Positions 2,140 through 23,102 of a stretch of 38,589 bases of DNA are shown in pieces (positions within the stretch are counted from its first letter, which is position 1; each line of letters starts with the position of its first letter). Below the pieces are notes generated by a model. It worked only from the letters and a program-made list of their open reading frames with translations. It was not told the DNA's origin and searched no databases. This DNA comes from Bacteroidota bacterium (GTDB taxonomy: Bacteria > Bacteroidota > Bacteroidia > Chitinophagales > Chitinophagaceae). The translations under genes and the position numbers were made by a program. The stretch lies in contig JAGWRO010000063.1 in NCBI GenBank assembly GCA_028876495.1, positions 1-38,589 of the forward strand, read 5' to 3'.

Positions 2140-3660
2140 TTATTTTTTTATCAATTCATTTAATTCTTCTGATAATTCTTTTACCTCGCCAGGATTTTGA
2201 TCTGCCACATTACGAACCTCTCCGGGATCTTTCTCCAAATTGTATAACTGTGGTGTAACTTGTAAGCCTGTAGGAACATCTTTATTCTTCAACCAGTCGG
2301 GTGTTTTGGCTGTTACAGGAGCTATATATTTCCAATCTCCTGATCTTAATGATAAGGTAAACGCTTCTTCTATCATCTGCTTTCTTCCTTCTTTTGATTT
2401 CCCTAATAAAACCGAAAGGAGATCCTTGCTGTCCGGAGCAGCTTTACTATGATCTACCTGCTCACCCACCAATTGTGCAAGGGAAGCATAAATATCTACC
2501 TGGCTGATTAAAGCATTGCTCTCTCCGTGTTGAATTTTTCCGAGCCAATACGTAATTGTTGGTACCCTGGTTCCTCCTTCGTAAGCGCTATACTTACCTC
2601 CTTTATAAATCCCGGCGGGATGATGATCGCCTAAAAGCTGTACTGCTTTATCAGCATAACCATCGTCTAATACCGGGCCATTGTCGCTACTGAAAATGAC
2701 TAATGTATTATCTTCCAAACCTAATTTCTTCAGCGTCTTCATTACTTCCCCAGTCATCCAGTCCATTTGCACAATATCATCTCCCCTTGGGCCCATTTTG
2801 GTAGCACCTACAAATTTTGCATTTGGAGCCCTGGGTACGTGAATGCTCGGTAAGCTGTAATAAAGAAAGAAGGGGCCGTCTTTATGTTGCGTAATAAATT
2901 CAGTAACTTTATCATTTAATACTGTGGCAAAATCTTCATCCTTCCAATAAGCCTGATGTCCTCCTTTCATAAATCCTATCCGGCTGATTCCATTTATAAT
3001 GGTTCCGCTATGCTGGCTATCTGCCTGCATTTTTAGCATTTCCGGGTGCTCCAGCCCAATAGGGTCATTTCCAACTCTTTGATTATAATTTATGGTAATT
3101 GGATCGTTTTTATCCAGGTTAACCACTTTATGATTTTCTACATAAACAGTAGGCACCCTGTCTGGTGTTGCAGGAATTAAAAAACTATAATCAAAGCCTA
3201 TTTCCAGCGGACCAGGTTTTATTTCAGCATTCCAATCTGGTTTACCATCTCCCAAACCTAAATGCCATTTCCCTATCACTCCAGTGGCATAGCCTGCTTT
3301 TTTTAGCATTGAAGCCACAGTTCCCTTATTAGGGTCAATAATGAGTGGAGCATCTCCCGGAAGAATAGCTGCGTTATTTCTGAAAGCATAACTTCCTGTT
3401 AGCAGCGCATATCTTGAAGGCGTGCAGGTAGAAGCTGAGCAGTGGGCATCAGTAAACTTCAAACCGTCTTTGGCTAATGCATCCACATTAGGGGTTTGCA
3501 CTGCAGTAGCTCCATAGCAACTGACATCTCCATACCCAAGATCGTCCACGTAAATAATCAAAATATTCGGTTTTTTTGCCACCACCGATTTCCGCCGATT
3601 TTGGTTACAGGAACAAATCAAAAAAAATATTGGAAAAGCTAAAAGATGTATCCGTTTCAT
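2140..3660 (-). CDS. Type I sulfatase, lipoprotein (left copy)
   Basis: Formylglycine-dependent sulfatase of the alkaline-phosphatase superfamily (family S1), removing sulfate esters from glycans. Lipoprotein signal with Cys18 (ICSC), then PNILIIYVDDLGYGD at 31-45 supplying metal-binding Asp39-Asp40. The maturation motif CTPSR at 79-83 is intact, so Cys79 should be converted to formylglycine. GKWHLG and the second metal site SSDNGP are also present. Its 506 residues are normal for the family. It is closely related along its whole length to the sulfatase at 19955-21478, sharing features such as SFxIPATPDRVPxVYVENH and MKGGHQAYWKD. It lies downstream of the dead sulfatase fragment and 66 bases upstream of the GH128-like gene. 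No maturase gene is in the window. The S1 subfamily and the regiospecificity cannot be told by eye. Confidence 0.93.
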   Translation of the reverse strand: MKRIHLLAFPIFFLICSCNQNRRKSVVAKKPNILIIYVDDLGYGDVSCYGATAVQTPNVDALAKDGLKFTDAHCSASTCTPSRYALLTGSYAFRNNAAILPGDAPLIIDPNKGTVASMLKKAGYATGVIGKWHLGLGDGKPDWNAEIKPGPLEIGFDYSFLIPATPDRVPTVYVENHKVVNLDKNDPITINYNQRVGNDPIGLEHPEMLKMQADSQHSGTIINGISRIGFMKGGHQAYWKDEDFATVLNDKVTEFITQHKDGPFFLYYSLPSIHVPRAPNAKFVGATKMGPRGDDIVQMDWMTGEVMKTLKKLGLEDNTLVIFSSDNGPVLDDGYADKAVQLLGDHHPAGIYKGGKYSAYEGGTRVPTITYWLGKIQHGESNALISQVDIYASLAQLVGEQVDHSKAAPDSKDLLSVLLGKSKEGRKQMIEEAFTLSLRSGDWKYIAPVTAKTPDWLKNKDVPTGLQVTPQLYNLEKDPGEVRNVADQNPGEVKELSEELNELIKK

Positions 3661-3679: not shown

Positions 3680-3697
3680 AGTCAAAGGTTCAATAGC
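3680..3697. repeat. 18-base direct repeat, copy 1; leftover tail of a beta-helix gene
   Basis: The 18 bases AGTCAAAGGTTCAATAGC occur here and again at 5734-5751 in the same orientation. At 5734-5751 they encode part of the C-terminus GAIEPLTDS of the beta-helix protein. Read on the minus strand here, GAIEPLTYK and a stop appear in frame, although no beta-helix gene precedes them. It looks like the last codons of a second or former beta-helix-type gene, fused to the sulfatase fragment. Confidence 0.7.
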
Positions 3698-3953
3698 GCC
3701 CCGACATGATTTGGGACCAGCCAGGTGAACATGTCGGCGCAACGTGGAAGTCGGTTAACCGCACGCTCTCCTCCAAGTTGGTCAATGTTCGGAGTGCGAG
3801 GTGCATCATTTTAGTGATTGTAATAACTGAAATCACTGTAGCTCAAATCATTCGGCATGATGATCACTACATTGGGACGCTGTACCTGGCCCCCGTGGCT
3901 AATGCCGCCGTGAATGCCAGCAACAAAGTCAAGTAGATCGATTGTTTCTTCAT
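3690..3953 (-). pseudogene. Decayed N-terminal fragment of a GC-rich sulfatase gene
   Basis: Starting at the ATG at 3953 the minus strand encodes a signal peptide (MKKQSIYLTLLLAFTAALAT). After a frameshift come RPNVVIIMPNDLSYSDFSYYN, a TAA stop, then PRTPNIDQL. After a second frameshift come ESVRLTDFHVAPTCSPGWSQ and IMSGRY, then TGA at 3690. This is the first 85-90 residues of a type I sulfatase. It has two frameshifts, one nonsense codon, Arg to Trp in the CxPxR maturation motif, Asp to Asn in the metal-binding DD pair, and no remaining 400 residues. The composition is far more GC-rich than the neighbours and matches GH29 just upstream, so the two probably arrived together. It differs from the three intact sulfatases and is not a copy of them. 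Confidence 0.85.
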
Positions 3954-3960
3954 GCTATTT

Positions 3961-3968
3961 TTCCTCCT
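3961..3968 (-). promoter_or_regulatory. Perfect Shine-Dalgarno sequence of the dead sulfatase
   Basis: The minus strand reads AGGAGGAA, with nine bases between AGGAGG and the ATG at 3953. Bacteroidota genes usually lack such strong sites, and the other genes here have at most weak purine runs. It supports the view that this segment came from a Shine-Dalgarno-using donor. Confidence 0.65.
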
Positions 3969-3995
3969 ATATGGTTCATTCTAATCAATGTTTAG

Positions 3996-5372
3996 TTAAT
4001 GGGATTGTTCTTTCGCCGATGGTGTCACCTTCGCCGCATTATCCGCAATCTGGACACAGACAACGGAAGCAATTTTGTCAGGTGCTACAGACGGCAGATC
4101 GAGCGTCACGGCAGCATCGGTCTGAGTGAACTTTAGTTCCTGGTGGTCGGCCAGCAGGTAGGCCTTGGTGACTTTGCTTTCAAGGCCGGGTAATTCAAAT
4201 TTCCCATCCTCCGGCCAGTTGAAAATTATGATGTAAAGTTTGCCCGGCTTGGTCGTGCAACGCCAATCATTGCCTGATGAAACCATAATTTCCTTGCCAT
4301 ACCCGCTCCTGCCCTTAACGTCCTTGCCAAACTCGACGCCAAACGCTGTAGGGCCGGCGCCATAAATCGCTTCGCCATTTTCTTTCATCCATCGGCCAAT
4401 GGCCGCCAGCCGTTCCACCTCCGGCGAGGGAATGATACCCTTCGAGGTCGGACCAATGTTCAGCAAATAATTGCCGCCCTTGCTCGCGATGTCGCAGAGA
4501 TTGCGAATCAGGATTTCAGTGGATTTCCAGTTCTCGTCATCGCGCTTGTAACCCCAGGTGTTGTTGATCGTCATGCAGGTTTCCCAATCTTGACCAGGGA
4601 AACCTTGCGGGGGGATTTTTTGTTCCGGCGTCTTGTAGTCGCCTTCGAATCCGCCGCCGAGGCGGTTGTTCATAATGATGCCGGGTTTGAGGGCCTCGAC
4701 GGCATCGTAAAGTTTTTTAGCACGTTCGGGATTCATGTCCAGTGGAGTGTCCCACCAGAGCACGGCAGGGACATCCGAACCGTAATTCGTCAGCAGTTCC
4801 TTCACCTGCGGCACAGCAATTTTGTCAATGTAATCATCCATATCGTGCTGTTGCGTCGAATCCCATTTACCACCGGCGGCCGCGCCGCCGTTGTTCCAGT
4901 CCTGGGCCTGCGAATAATAGAAACCCAGCTTGATGCCGTATTTCCGGCAAGCCAATGCGAGTTCCTGCAAAGGGTCATGGTGCCACGGGGTCGCATCGTA
5001 AATGTTCCATTTGCTGACCTTGGTAGGCCACATGGCAAATCCGTCATGATGCTTGGCGGTAATTACAATGTATTTCATCCCCGCATCCCTGGCGATCTTT
5101 ACCCATTGGTCGGCATTGAAATCTGTCGGGTCAAATTTCTTGGCGAACTGCTGGTATTCGGCCATGGGAATCTTGCCTCGGTTCATGATCCATTCGCCGA
5201 TGCCTTTGACCGGCTGGCCGTGGTAATATCCGGCAGGCACTGAATAGACGCCCCAGTGGATGAACATTCCAAACTTCGCTTCGCGCCACCATTCCATCTT
5301 GTCTGGTTTACCTTGCGAAAAGAGATTGAACAAAAGAAAAAAAGAGATAATTGTTAATACAATTCGTTTCAT
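3996..5372 (-). CDS. GH29 alpha-L-fucosidase, horizontally acquired
   Basis: Secreted exo-alpha-L-fucosidase. After a signal peptide (residues 1-19, cleavage near LFSQ) the GH29 barrel begins with WWREAKFGMFIHWGVYS at 28-44. TAKHHDGFAMW lies at 105-115, and the conserved LWWD places the nucleophile at Asp208. NNTWGYKRDDENWKS and GGNYLLNIGPTSKG are typical family blocks. At 458 residues it has barrel plus a short C-terminal beta domain. The mature part is strikingly GC-rich (hand counts of three separate 60-base lines gave about 48, 57 and 63%), while flanking lines give about 20-33%. The first 60 or so bases, encoding the signal peptide, are AT-rich like the host. It begins 11 bases after the GH95 remnant and is followed by the dead sulfatase. 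It looks intact and functional. Fucosidase is the family's usual activity, though some relatives act on other L-sugars. Confidence 0.93.
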   Translation of the reverse strand: MKRIVLTIISFFLLFNLFSQGKPDKMEWWREAKFGMFIHWGVYSVPAGYYHGQPVKGIGEWIMNRGKIPMAEYQQFAKKFDPTDFNADQWVKIARDAGMKYIVITAKHHDGFAMWPTKVSKWNIYDATPWHHDPLQELALACRKYGIKLGFYYSQAQDWNNGGAAAGGKWDSTQQHDMDDYIDKIAVPQVKELLTNYGSDVPAVLWWDTPLDMNPERAKKLYDAVEALKPGIIMNNRLGGGFEGDYKTPEQKIPPQGFPGQDWETCMTINNTWGYKRDDENWKSTEILIRNLCDIASKGGNYLLNIGPTSKGIIPSPEVERLAAIGRWMKENGEAIYGAGPTAFGVEFGKDVKGRSGYGKEIMVSSGNDWRCTTKPGKLYIIIFNWPEDGKFELPGLESKVTKAYLLADHQELKFTQTDAAVTLDLPSVAPDKIASVVCVQIADNAAKVTPSAKEQSH

Positions 5373-5383
5373 CTGTAAATAAT

Positions 5384-5704
5384 TTATAAACTTCTACTTA
5401 AAAATCTAATTCGAATTTTTGAACCGGTAATATTATAGCGATTTGGAAATATGGCCACCGTACCAAAGTTTGTAATGATTGAACAATATACATTTGGTTT
5501 CAATTGAGGCATAACCCATTGTCCAATAATTTCATTGCCTGAAGGCAAACCCTCCCACCAATTTGAAGCTGGTGTTATCATGGGCATGCCCCGATTGAAA
5601 GATGGGCTTTTAATATCTGCCATATCTGTGTTTTTAGAATTATTACAACTCAGCAAAATCAATAATATAGCTATCCTTGATAATAAAATTCGAATTTTCT
5701 TCAT
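5384..5704 (-). pseudogene. Truncated, frameshifted GH95-type alpha-L-fucosidase (N-terminal stub)
   Basis: The ATG at 5704 overlaps the beta-helix stop by four bases (ATGA), so this was a translationally coupled operon member. The open frame of 106 codons has a lipoprotein signal (LLILLSC) and the block PASNWWEGLPSGNEIIG, resembling the GH95 N-terminus (WxEALPxGNGxxGAM). Near 5505 the frame is lost. In the next frame the sequence continues SIETKCILFNHYKLWYGG, matching the GH95 block around 'LNEETLWSGG', and stops at 5433. GH95 enzymes are about 750-800 residues and their catalytic centre is C-terminal, so only a dead stub remains. The GH29 gene starts immediately after. The GH95 assignment rests on two short motifs in two frames and on composition; a different family with a similar N-terminal domain cannot be excluded. 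Confidence 0.65.
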
Positions 5705-7419
5705 AAGCCGGTTATAGTTGAATTAAGTGAGTCAGTCAAAGGTTCAATAGCTCCCAAACCCGGTTGAGTTGGAACAGGATGACCCAAAATATCTTCTTTC
5801 ATGTTTAGCCCATGCAGTAAACCAAAGTAATCTCCCTTTAGGTAAGGAATCTTTATGCCTTTATTTTTAACCAAATTTATTTTTAGAGGCGTGTAATCAC
5901 CAGGATTTAAACCGCCTGGATTTTTAAAATCCGGATCTCCATAAATTGGTTTGCTATCTTTTATTTTCATTCCCCGGGGCCAGGAATCGGGTTTCAGAAA
6001 TAGATTATTCTCAAAAAAAACATTCCCCATTTCTTTATTTGATTTTGTATCGGGTTTATATTGATCTCCTAAAACCAATTGAGATGGATTAGCTAAGTAA
6101 AAGATATTATTAGCAATCAGCACGCCATTACTGGTGTTATCAAAAGCCATTTTTGAGTGAATGGTTTCGTCAGCATAAATGGTGTTATTATAGATGTAAG
6201 TATTCACCGGCCCCTTCCTCTCATTTTTACTTCCCTGGAAACCGCTTAGCCAAAGTGTTTTACCATCCTGAAAAGCTCCATCTACTCCTTTATTTCGATA
6301 TCCATCATTTATACTGATATTATACCTGTAGGTACAGTTGTAATTGTTACCTAATATTTCACAAAATCCGCCGGCATTATAGCCACTTAAATTATACTGA
6401 ATGACAATATTATCGCATCCAAAATCAATATGAGCTCCGTCAGAATCGCCAGGGCCATTGGCATGTAAAAATTTGTTTTTTTCTATCAACACGTCAGATG
6501 AGCCCCAGGTCCATAAGCCGCTTCCTCTTCCCCATTTCCTGCTATCATCGTTACTACCGGAATACTGTATATTATTATTCGCAACATAAACGAATTGTAC
6601 CCCAGACATTTGTATTCCCGGCCCCCCTGTTTTTAATACTTTATTATTCAGTATGTTCACCCGTTTAATATTTTTCCCGCTGCCAGTAAGTTTAATACCT
6701 GTATGACTCACATCTGTTATGCTGCAATTCTGAATGGTAATGTTTTCCATTACGTTTTCAGGATGATTATTGATGAGTTTTATTCCCCATCCATATTTTT
6801 GTGTTCCATTGGCACTTTTCACTTCTTCCTTGCCCCTTTTAAATCCTTTGTTTTCGAAGTAAACATCATTAATTGTTAAATGCTCAAGAAGGAAAGACTG
6901 CATTCGTTTTTTCTTATCTGAAAGAAGGAGCACTGCACATCTTTGATAAAAATCCTGTTGACCTTGCGTATATCCATCTCCCGTTAAATGAATATTGCTG
7001 ATTTTGATAAAACTGCAATCCTTCAATAAAATCCCGGTTTGCAGGTTTTTAAAATCTATAACAGCAGGAGCATCTTCTACTCCATCCCAGCTTGTTGATT
7101 GAACTTCGATGTAATGATCGTTGTTCCCTTCCTGGTTGACCAGTTTTAAACTACCGGGGTAAACCTGGCCGTTAGCCAGCATTATTTTATCCCCCGGCAT
7201 GAGATGTATCTTTTCAATTTGCTGCAGCGTCTTAAAGGGATGCTCTTTTGATGTACCAGGGTTATGATCATTTCCTAATTGAGGGTGAACAAAATAGGTT
7301 TTAGATAAAGTATCTGACTTTAGATTAGACACGTCATTGGCTGAATAGGAATAGGACTCAGCAAAGCTACATTCCAGAAGTATTAGAAGAGATATTGCTA
7401 AGAAGATCAGCTTTTTCAT
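5701..7419 (-). CDS. Secreted right-handed parallel beta-helix protein (pectate-lyase-like fold)
   Basis: Residues 1-20 form a signal peptide (cleavage near SFA-ES). YFVHPQLGNDHNPGTSKEHP followed by FKTLQQ is the usual opening of DUF1565/pectate-lyase-superfamily beta-helix proteins. The body holds successive helix turns with Asn-rich ladders (FIKISNIHLTGDGY, NVMENITIQNCSITDVSHTG, IKRVNILNNKVLKTGGPGIQ, VLIEKNKFLHANGPGDSDG). The 572 residues end with LGAIEPL, a terminal strand common in these proteins. The fold is used by polysaccharide lyases and by several glycoside hydrolase families, so it probably cuts or binds the target glycan; I cannot assign a family or catalytic residues. It lies 6 bases downstream of the SGNH gene and overlaps the GH95 stub by four bases. 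The cell location is probably periplasm or outside. Confidence 0.75.
   Translation of the reverse strand: MKKLIFLAISLLILLECSFAESYSYSANDVSNLKSDTLSKTYFVHPQLGNDHNPGTSKEHPFKTLQQIEKIHLMPGDKIMLANGQVYPGSLKLVNQEGNNDHYIEVQSTSWDGVEDAPAVIDFKNLQTGILLKDCSFIKISNIHLTGDGYTQGQQDFYQRCAVLLLSDKKKRMQSFLLEHLTINDVYFENKGFKRGKEEVKSANGTQKYGWGIKLINNHPENVMENITIQNCSITDVSHTGIKLTGSGKNIKRVNILNNKVLKTGGPGIQMSGVQFVYVANNNIQYSGSNDDSRKWGRGSGLWTWGSSDVLIEKNKFLHANGPGDSDGAHIDFGCDNIVIQYNLSGYNAGGFCEILGNNYNCTYRYNISINDGYRNKGVDGAFQDGKTLWLSGFQGSKNERKGPVNTYIYNNTIYADETIHSKMAFDNTSNGVLIANNIFYLANPSQLVLGDQYKPDTKSNKEMGNVFFENNLFLKPDSWPRGMKIKDSKPIYGDPDFKNPGGLNPGDYTPLKINLVKNKGIKIPYLKGDYFGLLHGLNMKEDILGHPVPTQPGLGAIEPLTDSLNSTITGL
5734..5751. repeat. 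18-base direct repeat, copy 2 (inside the beta-helix gene)
   Basis: Same 18 bases as 3680-3697, here within the intact 3' end of the beta-helix gene (codons for AIEPLT). The two copies lie 2054 bases apart and bracket exactly the GH95 stub, the GH29 gene and the dead sulfatase. Confidence 0.7.
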
Positions 7420-19954: not shown

Positions 19955-21478
19955 ATGACAAAATCTAAAATTTTCTTATTAATTCCTTTTGCATTACTTC
20001 TTGGTGCAAAGGTTTTAGCTCAGCACAGTTCTAAGCCTAATGTAATTATTATTTATTCTGATGATGTAGGCTATGGAGATATAAGTTGCTATGGTGCAGA
20101 TAAAATACAAACCCCAAATATCGATAAAATTGCTGAGCAAGGAATCAGATTTACCAATGCTCACGCATCTTCATCTACCTGCACGCCTTCCAGATATGCT
20201 CTATTAACCGGTAAATATCCCTGGAGAAAAAAAGGTACCGGAATTGCAGCGGGAGACGCGAGCTCCATAATCGATGAAAATCAATTCACTTTAGGTGATT
20301 TATTTCAAAAGGCAGGCTACCGAACAGGGGTTATTGGAAAATGGCATTTGGGTTTGGGCGGCCCATCCGGTCCAAATTGGAATGGTAGCATCAAACCCGG
20401 CCCAAATGAGCTGGGGTTTAATTACTCTTTCATTATTCCCGCTACTCCTGACCGGGTTCCTTGTGTTTACGTAGAAAATCATCATGTAGTTAATTTAGAT
20501 ATTAAAGATTCTATTGAGGTAAGCTACCAACATCCTATCGGGACTGATCCCATTGGAACATTACATCCGGAATTGCTTAAAGTCAAAGCAGACTTACAAC
20601 ACAGCGGAACCATAATTAATGGAATTAGCCGAATAGGATACATGAAAGGAGGGCACCAGGCCTACTGGAAAGACGATCAAATGAGTGATAAAATTACCGA
20701 TAAAGCTCTAAAATTTATAAAAGAAAACCAACTACAACCCTTCTTCTTATATTTTGCTATCCAGGATGTACATGTTCCCAGAGTACCTAATGAACGTTTC
20801 AGAGGAAAAAGTGGTATGGGTGCAAGAGGGGATGCCTTATTAGAATTAGATGAGAATACCGGAAAAATACTTCACCTATTAGACAGCCTACATCTAGCGA
20901 AAAATACAATTGTGATTTTTAGCAGTGATAATGGTCCGGTTTTAAATGACGGCTATCAAGACAGTGCAAAAATGCTGTTAAATGGACATCGACCCTCAGG
21001 TCCGTATAAAGGCTGGAAATACAGCAAATTTGACGCCGGAACCAGGATTCCAATGATGATTAGATGGCCCGGAATTATTAAAGAAGGTGAGGTTTCAGAT
21101 GCTTTAATTGGCCAGATCGATTTTTTGGCTTCTATGGCAAATCTGCTCCATTTCAAACTCCCTGAACATGCTGCCCCCGATAGCAAAGAGCTATTAAAAG
21201 TGTTATCAGGCAAATCCAAAAAGGGGAGGAAAAGTATAATTGAACAGGGCTTGCCGGGCTTAGCCATTCTTAAAGGAAATTGGAAATATATCCCACCTTC
21301 CAAGGGAGCAGCGGTGTTGAAAGAAAAAGACAATCTGGAAACAGGAAATAGCAACGTCCCACAGCTATATAATTTAAAAAATGATTTAGGTGAGACCAAA
21401 AATCTTGCTTCCAAATATCCTAAAAAAGAAAAAAAGCTGTCCAATCTTTTATTTCAAATACAAGAAGAGGTTAAGTGA
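19955..21478 (+). CDS. Type I sulfatase (right copy)
   Basis: Formylglycine sulfatase of family S1, 507 residues. A signal peptide (about 1-22, cleavage near VLAQ) is followed by PNVIIIYSDDVGYGD with metal-binding Asp36-Asp37. The maturation motif CTPSR at 76-80 makes Cys76 the formylglycine precursor, and SSDNGP supplies further metal ligands. Along its length it parallels the sulfatase at 2140-3660, including the block SFIIPATPDRVPCVYVENHH and MKGGHQAYWKDD. The two are clearly paralogues, but this one has a signal-peptidase-I type leader (no lipobox), whereas the left copy is a lipoprotein. So the same reaction may be placed at different sites: soluble periplasmic here, membrane-anchored there. 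It lies between GH2 and a second, more distant sulfatase (25-base gap), clearly in one operon. Confidence 0.95.
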   Translation: MTKSKIFLLIPFALLLGAKVLAQHSSKPNVIIIYSDDVGYGDISCYGADKIQTPNIDKIAEQGIRFTNAHASSSTCTPSRYALLTGKYPWRKKGTGIAAGDASSIIDENQFTLGDLFQKAGYRTGVIGKWHLGLGGPSGPNWNGSIKPGPNELGFNYSFIIPATPDRVPCVYVENHHVVNLDIKDSIEVSYQHPIGTDPIGTLHPELLKVKADLQHSGTIINGISRIGYMKGGHQAYWKDDQMSDKITDKALKFIKENQLQPFFLYFAIQDVHVPRVPNERFRGKSGMGARGDALLELDENTGKILHLLDSLHLAKNTIVIFSSDNGPVLNDGYQDSAKMLLNGHRPSGPYKGWKYSKFDAGTRIPMMIRWPGIIKEGEVSDALIGQIDFLASMANLLHFKLPEHAAPDSKELLKVLSGKSKKGRKSIIEQGLPGLAILKGNWKYIPPSKGAAVLKEKDNLETGNSNVPQLYNLKNDLGETKNLASKYPKKEKKLSNLLFQIQEEVK

Positions 21479-21503
21479 TCTCTCTTTAAAACCGTTAAAT
21501 ATC

Positions 21504-23102
21504 ATGAAAAGGAAAAATCTTAAATTTCTTGTCTTAATTCTATTATCAGGCACTTTCAAATTCAGTTTTGCCCAGGCACATCATGCTACAAAAGTGCAAA
21601 AAACCCAACCAAACATCATCGTTTTTTTAGTGGATGATATGGGATGGGAAGATACATCTGTTCCATTTTATAAAGAAAAAACTCCTTTAAACAGAAAGTA
21701 TCACACTCCTAATATGGAGCGTCTTGCGGCTATGGGTGTAAAGTTTACCCAGGCATACGCCAATTGCGTGTGTACGCCCTCAAGAGTAAGTTTACTAACC
21801 GGCATGAACGCTGCCCGGCATCGGGTAACCAACTGGACTGATTTCTTCGAAAATCATCCAACTGATTCTAAATATCCAAATATTAAATTACCTGAATGGA
21901 ATTATAACGGCTTAAGCCCGGTACCAGATACACCACATACCGTTTATGCCACCACTTTAGCCGAGATATTAAAAGAGCATGGCTATTTCACTATTCACAC
22001 CGGTAAAGCCCATTTTGCTTCCTATCCTACTTTAGGTTCAGATCCAAGAAATCTTGGATTTGATATTAATATTGCAGGCAATGCAGTTGGCGGACCTAAA
22101 AGTTATTTAGGAACAGAAAATTTCGGTAATGAAGTGAAAGGAGGTTATACTCCAAGGGCCATACCTGGTTTAGAGTTGTATCATGGACAGCATATTTTCC
22201 TTACTGAAGCATTAACACTCGAAGCAAAAAAAGCATTGGATGATGCCCGCTATCTTCAAAAACCATTCTTTCTTTACATGGCCCAATATGCCGTACATGC
22301 GCAATATAAACCCGATGACCGCTTTTATGGCCAATACATTAAAGAAGGTTTAGGGCGTGAAGAAGCGGAATATGCTGCACTTCTGCAAGGAATGGATAAG
22401 AGCTTAGGCGATTTAATGGATTATCTAAATAAATATCATTTAACGAAAAACACCATCATCATATTTATGTCAGATAATGGAGGATTGACACTAGTTCCTC
22501 CCCGTGGAGGCAAACCATTTACTCATAACTTACCTCTGAAAGCCGGTAAAGGATCTGGCTATGAAGGTGGAATAAGAGAACCTATGATGGTTTACTGGCC
22601 TGGGGTAACAAAACCTAATACAGTAAACAAACAATATCTGATGATTGAAGATTTCTTCCCCACTATCCTGCAAATGGCAGGAATCAATAATTATCAAACT
22701 GTACAAAAAGTAGACGGTAAAAGTATTGTTCCTTTCTTAAAAAATCCGGCTTTACAAGATACCACAAGAGCATTAATTTGGCACTTTCCTAATTACTGGC
22801 AGGAAGGGCAGCAAAGAGCCAAACAATACCAAATACAAGGCGAAAGTGAAGGTATGGGGCCTTACAGTGCTATTAGAAAAGGTGATTGGAAGCTGATTTA
22901 TTTTTATGGAACAAAAAGTACTGAACTTTATAATTTGAAAACAGACATCGGAGAGCATCATAACCTGGCAACTCAATACCCATCCAAAACCCTGAAGTTA
23001 GTAAACCTCCTAAATCAAAAACTAAAGGCAGAAAACGCCCAGTTCCCAATTGATGAAACTTCAGGAGTTACCTTGTATCCTGCCATCTCTCCAATTAAAT
23101 GA
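21504..23102 (+). CDS. Type I sulfatase, second subfamily
   Basis: A different S1 sulfatase. The frame is open from 21390, inside the previous gene, but I place the start at the ATG at 21504, which begins a proper signal peptide (MKRKNLKFLVLILLSGTFKF, cleavage near SFAQ) and leaves a 25-base gap. With this start it has 532 residues. PNIIVFLVDDMGWED at 36-50 gives metal ligands Asp44-Asp45. CTPSR at 90-94 gives formylglycine precursor Cys90. GKAHFASYP replaces the GKWHLG block of the other copies, and MSDNGG supplies the second metal site. The insertion around 105-140 and the GKAHF variant show it belongs to another subfamily than the mirrored pair, so it probably removes sulfate from a different position or sugar. 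A separate operator-like repeat follows it. Confidence 0.94.
   Translation: MKRKNLKFLVLILLSGTFKFSFAQAHHATKVQKTQPNIIVFLVDDMGWEDTSVPFYKEKTPLNRKYHTPNMERLAAMGVKFTQAYANCVCTPSRVSLLTGMNAARHRVTNWTDFFENHPTDSKYPNIKLPEWNYNGLSPVPDTPHTVYATTLAEILKEHGYFTIHTGKAHFASYPTLGSDPRNLGFDINIAGNAVGGPKSYLGTENFGNEVKGGYTPRAIPGLELYHGQHIFLTEALTLEAKKALDDARYLQKPFFLYMAQYAVHAQYKPDDRFYGQYIKEGLGREEAEYAALLQGMDKSLGDLMDYLNKYHLTKNTIIIFMSDNGGLTLVPPRGGKPFTHNLPLKAGKGSGYEGGIREPMMVYWPGVTKPNTVNKQYLMIEDFFPTILQMAGINNYQTVQKVDGKSIVPFLKNPALQDTTRALIWHFPNYWQEGQQRAKQYQIQGESEGMGPYSAIRKGDWKLIYFYGTKSTELYNLKTDIGEHHNLATQYPSKTLKLVNLLNQKLKAENAQFPIDETSGVTLYPAISPIK

Follow-up and report, generated by a model that had tools for sequence, protein, structure and literature searches.

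The window analysed here is the whole stretch of 38,589 nucleotides of contig JAGWRO010000063.1 (assembly GCA_028876495.1, a Bacteroidota bacterium of the Chitinophagaceae). Its minus strand carries an operon gene run with SusC, SusD and a sulfatase gene, of which a GH29 gene is a member. On the other strand nearby are GH2 and a second glycosyl-hydrolase-core gene, and beside them two further sulfatase ORFs which overlap as listed (19955-21478 and 21390-23102, plus strand). A glycosyl-hydrolase-core gene at 871-2133 separates the minus-strand sulfatase from the window's galK-like end (galK-like being a name given by eye). It is missing at that place in the sister species, genome G016, and in the outgroup, genome G159, it comes after the sulfatase with 74% amino acid identity. 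Searches of the window for tRNA genes and Rfam elements gave no match. The GH29 gene lies in a block between a beta-helix gene and a sulfatase gene, and everything on this block comes from one draft assembly of 99 contigs. The features are as follows.

2140-3660, minus strand: resident sulfatase gene (PF00884; aligned with G016; 78% amino acid identity in G159).
3680-3697, minus strand: right copy of an 18-bp repeat, collinear with G016 into the resident sulfatase.
3698-5733, no strand: inserted composite block of about 2.04 kb (2036 bases between the repeat copies; blastn against the sister locus L117), without counterpart in G016 and G159.
3698-3953, minus strand: 5' scrap, with frameshifts and a stop, of a second sulfatase gene of higher GC (three-frame translation, tblastx).
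3996-5372, minus strand: intact GH29 gene, alpha-L-fucosidase family, apparently a mosaic (PF01120; solved GH29 relatives).
3996-5277, minus strand: body of the GH29 gene, apparently of Verrucomicrobiota origin (amino acid identity to L037, DNA similarity, tree).
5278-5291, minus strand: 14-nt patch TGGTGGCGCGAAGC, common to loci L189 (Bacteroidota type) and L040 (Verrucomicrobiota type), the probable crossover region (sequence comparison; GC change point).
5292-5372, minus strand: low-GC leader of the GH29 gene (codons 1-27), made up of a signal peptide (by eye) and a linker and apparently of Bacteroidota GH29 type (GC, identity to L189, log-odds).
5384-5704, minus strand: lipoprotein-like ORF, the stub, with an apparent frameshifted GH95 N-terminal remnant (frame translations, joined-frame PF14498, unjoined HMM).
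5436-5572, minus strand: stretch of GH95 N-terminal similarity, in two frames (HMM and loci search).
5701-7419, minus strand: resident right-handed beta-helix gene (PF13229; 86% identical in the sister G016; junction sequences).
5734-5751, minus strand: left copy of the direct repeat (18 bp), close to the 3' end of the beta-helix ORF; the right copy matches it at 18/18 positions.

Of GH95 and of a second sulfatase the block holds scraps (a 5' one in the case of the sulfatase), and the GH29 gene is its sole intact gene. The GH29 product passes the gathering score of Alpha_L_fucos (PF01120, E=7.3e-93, profile positions 27-345 of 345) and matches solved GH29 enzymes (9rzy, E=1.3e-91, residues 27-448). 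Exo-alpha-L-galactosidases (7ljj) are also among the structure matches, and the GH29 family also contains alpha-L-galactosidase. No named family was found for the product in NCBIfam. Its LWWDTP motif carries D208, which we take to be at the position of the GH29 catalytic aspartate. The signal peptide is Bacteroidota-style and ends ..FSQ (by eye). We expect the putative product, if expressed and active, to be a periplasmic or surface exo-enzyme which would remove alpha-L-fucose or alpha-L-galactose from a sulfated glycan.

The stub overlaps the beta-helix ORF by four bases and is separated from the GH29 ORF by 11 bases (5373-5383), in agreement with an earlier sequence-only reading of this DNA. 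The same reading had pointed to GH95-like blocks in two frames of the stub strand. Both blocks were confirmed; PASNWWEGLPSGN is read in frame 0, FNHYKLWYGG being read in frame 2. As a single ORF, the stub gave no Pfam match up to E=10, chance-level matches only in the PDB (best 0.65) and, in 294 genomes of the family, weak matches to unrelated ORFs of 8 other genomes (best 2.6e-4). When the frames were joined by hand, PF14498 was matched at E=9.2e-6 over 42 of 234 positions, with 26.3 bits, 1.4 bits short of the gathering score of 27.7. A longer joined form with X at the join gave 19.6 bits (E=0.00099). The joined stub matched GH95 entries of the PDB weakly (2rdy, E=0.036; 4ufc, 0.063) and nothing in NCBIfam. 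In 395 genomes of the phylum its matches at E<=1e-4 were GH95-like ORFs with 37-39% in three other genomes, none of them closely related.

The frames were also scored unjoined, using a GH95 N-terminal HMM of 30 rows. The rows were 30 of the 32 loci found with the joined query; the ORFs around these loci are ordinary GH95-like ones, for the most part 785-957 aa long. Among 1146 six-frame fragments of the window of 20 aa or more, the two stub frames took ranks 1 and 2. They are collinear on the HMM, at positions 21-47 (15.2 bits) and 3-22 (14.4 bits), and the best of 1000 dinucleotide shuffles reached 6.9. Similarity to GH95 profiles, which had been proposed as a check, was thus seen below the Pfam gathering score for the joined frames and above all shuffles for the unjoined ones. 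Judged by its sequence, the stub appears to be a frameshifted remnant of a GH95 N-terminus. About 45 residues of similarity remain out of a protein of ~830 aa, with one frameshift, and the GH95 catalytic domain is absent from the ORF, which stops at 106 aa. At E<=0.001 the genome gave one PF14498 match, which lies on a different contig. A DNA search of the same genome with 5280-5760 gave no source copy of the stub or of the GH29 leader, returning a 25-base repeat partner and weak matches, and a plasmid search gave partial matches only, in 9 records. The end of the stub resembles its start (5377-5419 against 5656-5698, 43 nt, 72%, both with AAAATTCGAATT), and this internal repeat is probably due to chance in AT-rich DNA.

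At the other end of the block, the sulfatase scrap reads as the N-terminus of a secreted sulfatase in two frames with an internal stop; the GH29 frame, by contrast, is open. The last recognisable residues of the scrap, MSGRY, end in TCGGGGCGCTAT, which abuts the host sequence GGGAGCTAT. A microhomology join at this junction is plausible. The far-end junction reads GGGnGCTAT, and the 14-nt common patch on the other side would be a candidate homology anchor. As far as donor-side loci were examined, in none did a sulfatase come right after this GH29 as it does in the insert. Among 80 such loci with up to 6 kb of flank, a GH95 start was present in 4 and a sulfatase anywhere in 9. Where a same-strand sulfatase lay downstream, the intervening genes were inspected for L044, L074 and L085, with L084 left out. 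The nearest to the donor order is L044, a member of the GH29 clade described below, which has a same-strand sulfatase ~2.5 kb downstream with an opposite-strand gene between. This sulfatase has a weak tblastx match to the scrap (5e-4).

Comparison with the sister species defined the edges of the block. The gene order in G016 is regulator, SusC, SusD, SGNH, beta-helix, 9 bases, sulfatase and galK, with no GH95 or GH29 between the beta-helix and sulfatase genes; the names absent from the window (galK and beyond) were assigned by eye. G016 aligns with the window in three main collinear pieces of 83-88% nucleotide identity and a fourth, short piece of 77%. In blastn against L117 the pieces flanking the block overlap by 25 sister bases. 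The outgroup G159 has the beta-helix gene directly followed by the orthologous sulfatase, again with neither GH95 nor GH29. Among the genomes searched, only the window's own carries the block. The junction sequences show that the beta-helix gene has received a new C-terminal tail and stop codon from the insertion, and the right repeat copy is followed, just as G016 has it, by the intergenic stretch and the resident sulfatase's start codon. Since the repeat copies are alike at 18/18 positions and G016 differs from both at 3/18 (counted by eye), the duplication probably took place after the split from the sister species. The 18 bp are a minimum repeat length because a second event could have trimmed the repeat. 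A target duplication by a mobile element was weighed and rejected, there being no integrase ORF and no terminal inverted repeat by eye and by repeat scan.

The sequence-only reading had called the GH29 gene foreign and very different in composition from its neighbours. The difference in composition is true from about codon 28 (53% GC, GC3 0.64) and not of the first 75 bases, which at 29% GC are like the low-GC surroundings. The GC change point is at 5318 (support interval 5287-5332), with a lnL gain of 28.5, where 200 shuffles gave 7.7 or less. The foreign origin is borne out for the body. Its best relatives are Verrucomicrobiota-clade genes (L037 79%, L038 76% and L039 74% amino acid identity), and in a 104-row tree the GH29 nests at SH-aLRT 99 in a clade of 12 rows. 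Nine of these bear a Verrucomicrobiota title, L037 and L046 have just 'bacterium' as theirs, and the twelfth is the window. The tree was made by a quick method without bootstrap from 103 of 107 loci and the window; L008, L119, L120 and L127 were omitted as the window's own gene or for overlap with L007. Among the matches listed from 59 relatives, GH29s of the same genus reached at most 54% to the window GH29 and partial GH29 segments of the same family up to 67% (G023, residues 1-169). DNA similarity to Verrucomicrobiota GH29 genes starts at 5297. A query with residues 1-52 found GH29s of the window's own family to be similar through the leader (G089, 69% over residues 2-52; G137, 63%, and G325, 67%, both over 1-52). 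The leader of L189, the locus of G089, reads ..LVFNLSAQTSAKPDRMEWWREARFGMF.. against ..LLFNLFSQGKPDKMEWWREAKFGMF.. in the window.

Leave-one-out log-odds for the window were -43.8 for the leader (Bacteroidota) and +193.3 for the body (Verrucomicrobiota). Bodies were positive in all 11 other rows of the Verrucomicrobiota clade and in none of the 42 Bacteroidota-side rows. Leaders were negative in 41/42 Bacteroidota-side rows (the exception being L203, +0.3) and positive in 10/11 clade rows. The exception there, L046, has a negative leader (-18.8) with a positive body, which means that leaders carry a weak signal. The first test had 27 Bacteroidota-side rows, namely 20 of the 29 non-own loci found with residues 1-52 (open frames of at most 507 aa) and, from the 12-row Bacteroidota sister clade in the tree, 7 rows; the second added the 9 + 5 omitted rows and L009. 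The wider set weakened the scores, the leader changing from -50.1 and the body from +293.9 to the values above, the L046 leader becoming negative and the L203 leader falling to about zero. The gene starts for leader scoring were chosen by a rule of our own. The Bacteroidota rows L052, L203, L204 and L009 also read ..WW(R/K)(E/D)AK.. near the switch, and the breakpoint can therefore be placed only within ~5270-5332. These comparisons suggest that the GH29 gene is a hybrid, apparently consisting of a Bacteroidota-type leader and a Verrucomicrobiota body.

The best reading, in which we have good confidence, is that composite DNA was added to the operon and that in it a foreign GH29 body was fused in frame to a GH29 leader. 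It builds on the empty site in two relatives, the insertion edges, the two origins of the GH29 gene and the broken frames in both scraps. We infer the following order of steps. After the split from the sister species, a sulfatase-rich SusC/SusD operon would have gained about 2.04 kb of composite DNA between its beta-helix gene and its sulfatase gene. With this DNA came an intact GH29 and two dead scraps, one from the N-terminus of a GH95 and one from the 5' end of another sulfatase. In-frame recombination would have joined a Bacteroidota-type GH29 start (to about residue 27) to a Verrucomicrobiota GH29 body at the conserved WWREA motif. From the sequence, the recombination partner of the foreign GH29 appears to have been another GH29, with a Bacteroidota-type leader, rather than GH95. 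The native-type leader would direct the foreign enzyme into the host secretion route, and the position in the operon would put the GH29 under operon control. The likely route is a homology-anchored capture in which one end was guided by the shared GH29 patch and the other was joined illegitimately, the scrap ..GGGGCGCTAT to host GGGAGCTAT. The gene order of the pre-insertion parent was seen in no genome compared.

A sharper form of this explanation, which does not contradict it and to which we give somewhat less than an even chance, has two insertions on the lineage. A Bacteroidota GH95-GH29 cassette would have come first, and Verrucomicrobiota DNA, bringing the sulfatase scrap with it, would then have replaced the GH29 body and all that followed as far as the repeat. 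This would fit the two halves of the block, one AT-rich (5298-5730, 32% GC) and the other GC-rich, and the match of the leader to Bacteroidota GH29s. It would also fit the clusters of relatives, as GH95 and this GH29 share a cluster in three of the six relatives fetched (L219, L220 and L223). However, in these three clusters GH95 stands several genes from GH29, and the intermediate was found in no genome.

The hybrid nature of the gene would be illusory if the GH29 had come whole, without intragenic recombination, from some unsampled line of Verrucomicrobiota in which this leader is short and AT-rich. Leaders evolve fast, and that of L046 is ambiguous with 49% GC. The composition step in the window is sharp, however, and the codons from Met to WW have 30% GC there against 49-63% in 11/11 clade rows (the first nine of the 11 having been measured at 52-71%, then all 11 at 49-63%). 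The distance from Met to WW is also short, 27 in the window against 35-49 in 11/11 clade rows; it is 29-36 in 27/27 Bacteroidota rows of the first set and 30-63 in the 15 Bacteroidota-side rows added later. A whole-gene origin is thus improbable. The GC3 of L046 is 0.44, against 0.70-0.78 in five other donor-side genes, and with its ambiguous leader this clade-mate may have been transferred too, or be another hybrid.

The sequence-only reading had proposed an in-place swap, in which a native GH95 between the beta-helix and sulfatase genes was destroyed and the foreign GH29 put in its stead. Just upstream of the GH29 there is indeed what appears to be the remnant of a GH95 N-terminus, coupled by the four-base overlap to the beta-helix gene. 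However, this remnant is inside a repeat-bounded insertion, and the full-length GH95 that was to be looked for at this place in sister genomes did not appear. The beta-helix protein was found at E<=1e-30 in 8 of 294 genomes of the family sample, including the window's own. In 7/7 relatives examined the next gene is a sulfatase, and in 0/7 is it GH95 or GH29. The sulfatase is orthologous in G016 and G159 and distant in the other five (27-31% to the window sulfatases). This comparison took the best locus per genome, leaving out a weaker second beta-helix copy in G200 (L036). As G016 and G159 both lack GH95 at the site, a swap would require separate losses in each. The residence of a GH95 at the site is therefore not supported, and we regard the swap as quite unlikely. 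It is possible that a GH95 was gained on this lineage and then destroyed when the GH29 arrived. The beta-helix gene is present in 2/20 genomes of the genus (the window's own and G016), and the operon itself may therefore be mobile or widely lost.

An assembly or binning artefact, with foreign contig sequence stitched into the operon, might be suspected of a block seen in one draft genome of 99 contigs, but is very improbable given that both block edges continue into operon sequence, that the two repeat copies share a state unlike the sister, and that the GC3 of the body is below the 0.70-0.78 of five of the six donor-side genes measured (the sixth being L046).

Returning to the capture of composite DNA, the empty-site comparison corrects the story of a GH95-for-GH29 swap, and the locus suggests a way in which a SusC/SusD operon could put to use an enzyme secreted in another phylum, namely through a signal peptide of local type. 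We would tentatively go further and regard the locus as a readable fossil of a cross-phylum, homology-anchored capture at the 14-nt patch with microhomology at the far end. The conserved starts of catalytic domains might then be docking points which give foreign glycosidases a signal peptide and operon control at once. Genome surveys could test whether joins recur at conserved N-terminal motifs of secreted glycosidases. Among the matches listed from the open-licence PMC literature, none described this locus.

The GH29 gene has the full catalytic domain of the GH29 alpha-L-fucosidases (PF01120) and differs from them in that its signal peptide and body appear to be of different origin. The stub resembles GH95 (PF14498) over ~45 residues of the N-terminal domain; frameshifted and without the catalytic domain, it would be a remnant and not a working member. 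In situ gene displacement, reportedly described in a study of 2003, places a foreign gene inside an otherwise native operon, and the GH29 gene is likewise a foreign gene in an otherwise native operon. In contrast, the sister site is empty here, indicating an addition, and the gene itself would be a hybrid; a displaced gene was sought at the site, and GH95 or GH29 was there in none of the seven relatives. Homology-facilitated illegitimate recombination is said to have been described by de Vries and Wackernagel in 2002 and by Meier and Wackernagel in 2003, with homology at one end, a microhomology of a few bases at the other, and foreign DNA added. This locus may be comparable, with added DNA, a shared patch as candidate anchor at one end and a plausible microhomology at the other. 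It would differ in being a fossil that joins two phyla, in its short stretch of duplicated host sequence and in a mechanism that is putative. The event is of a known kind, and the locus is an unusually legible example of it.
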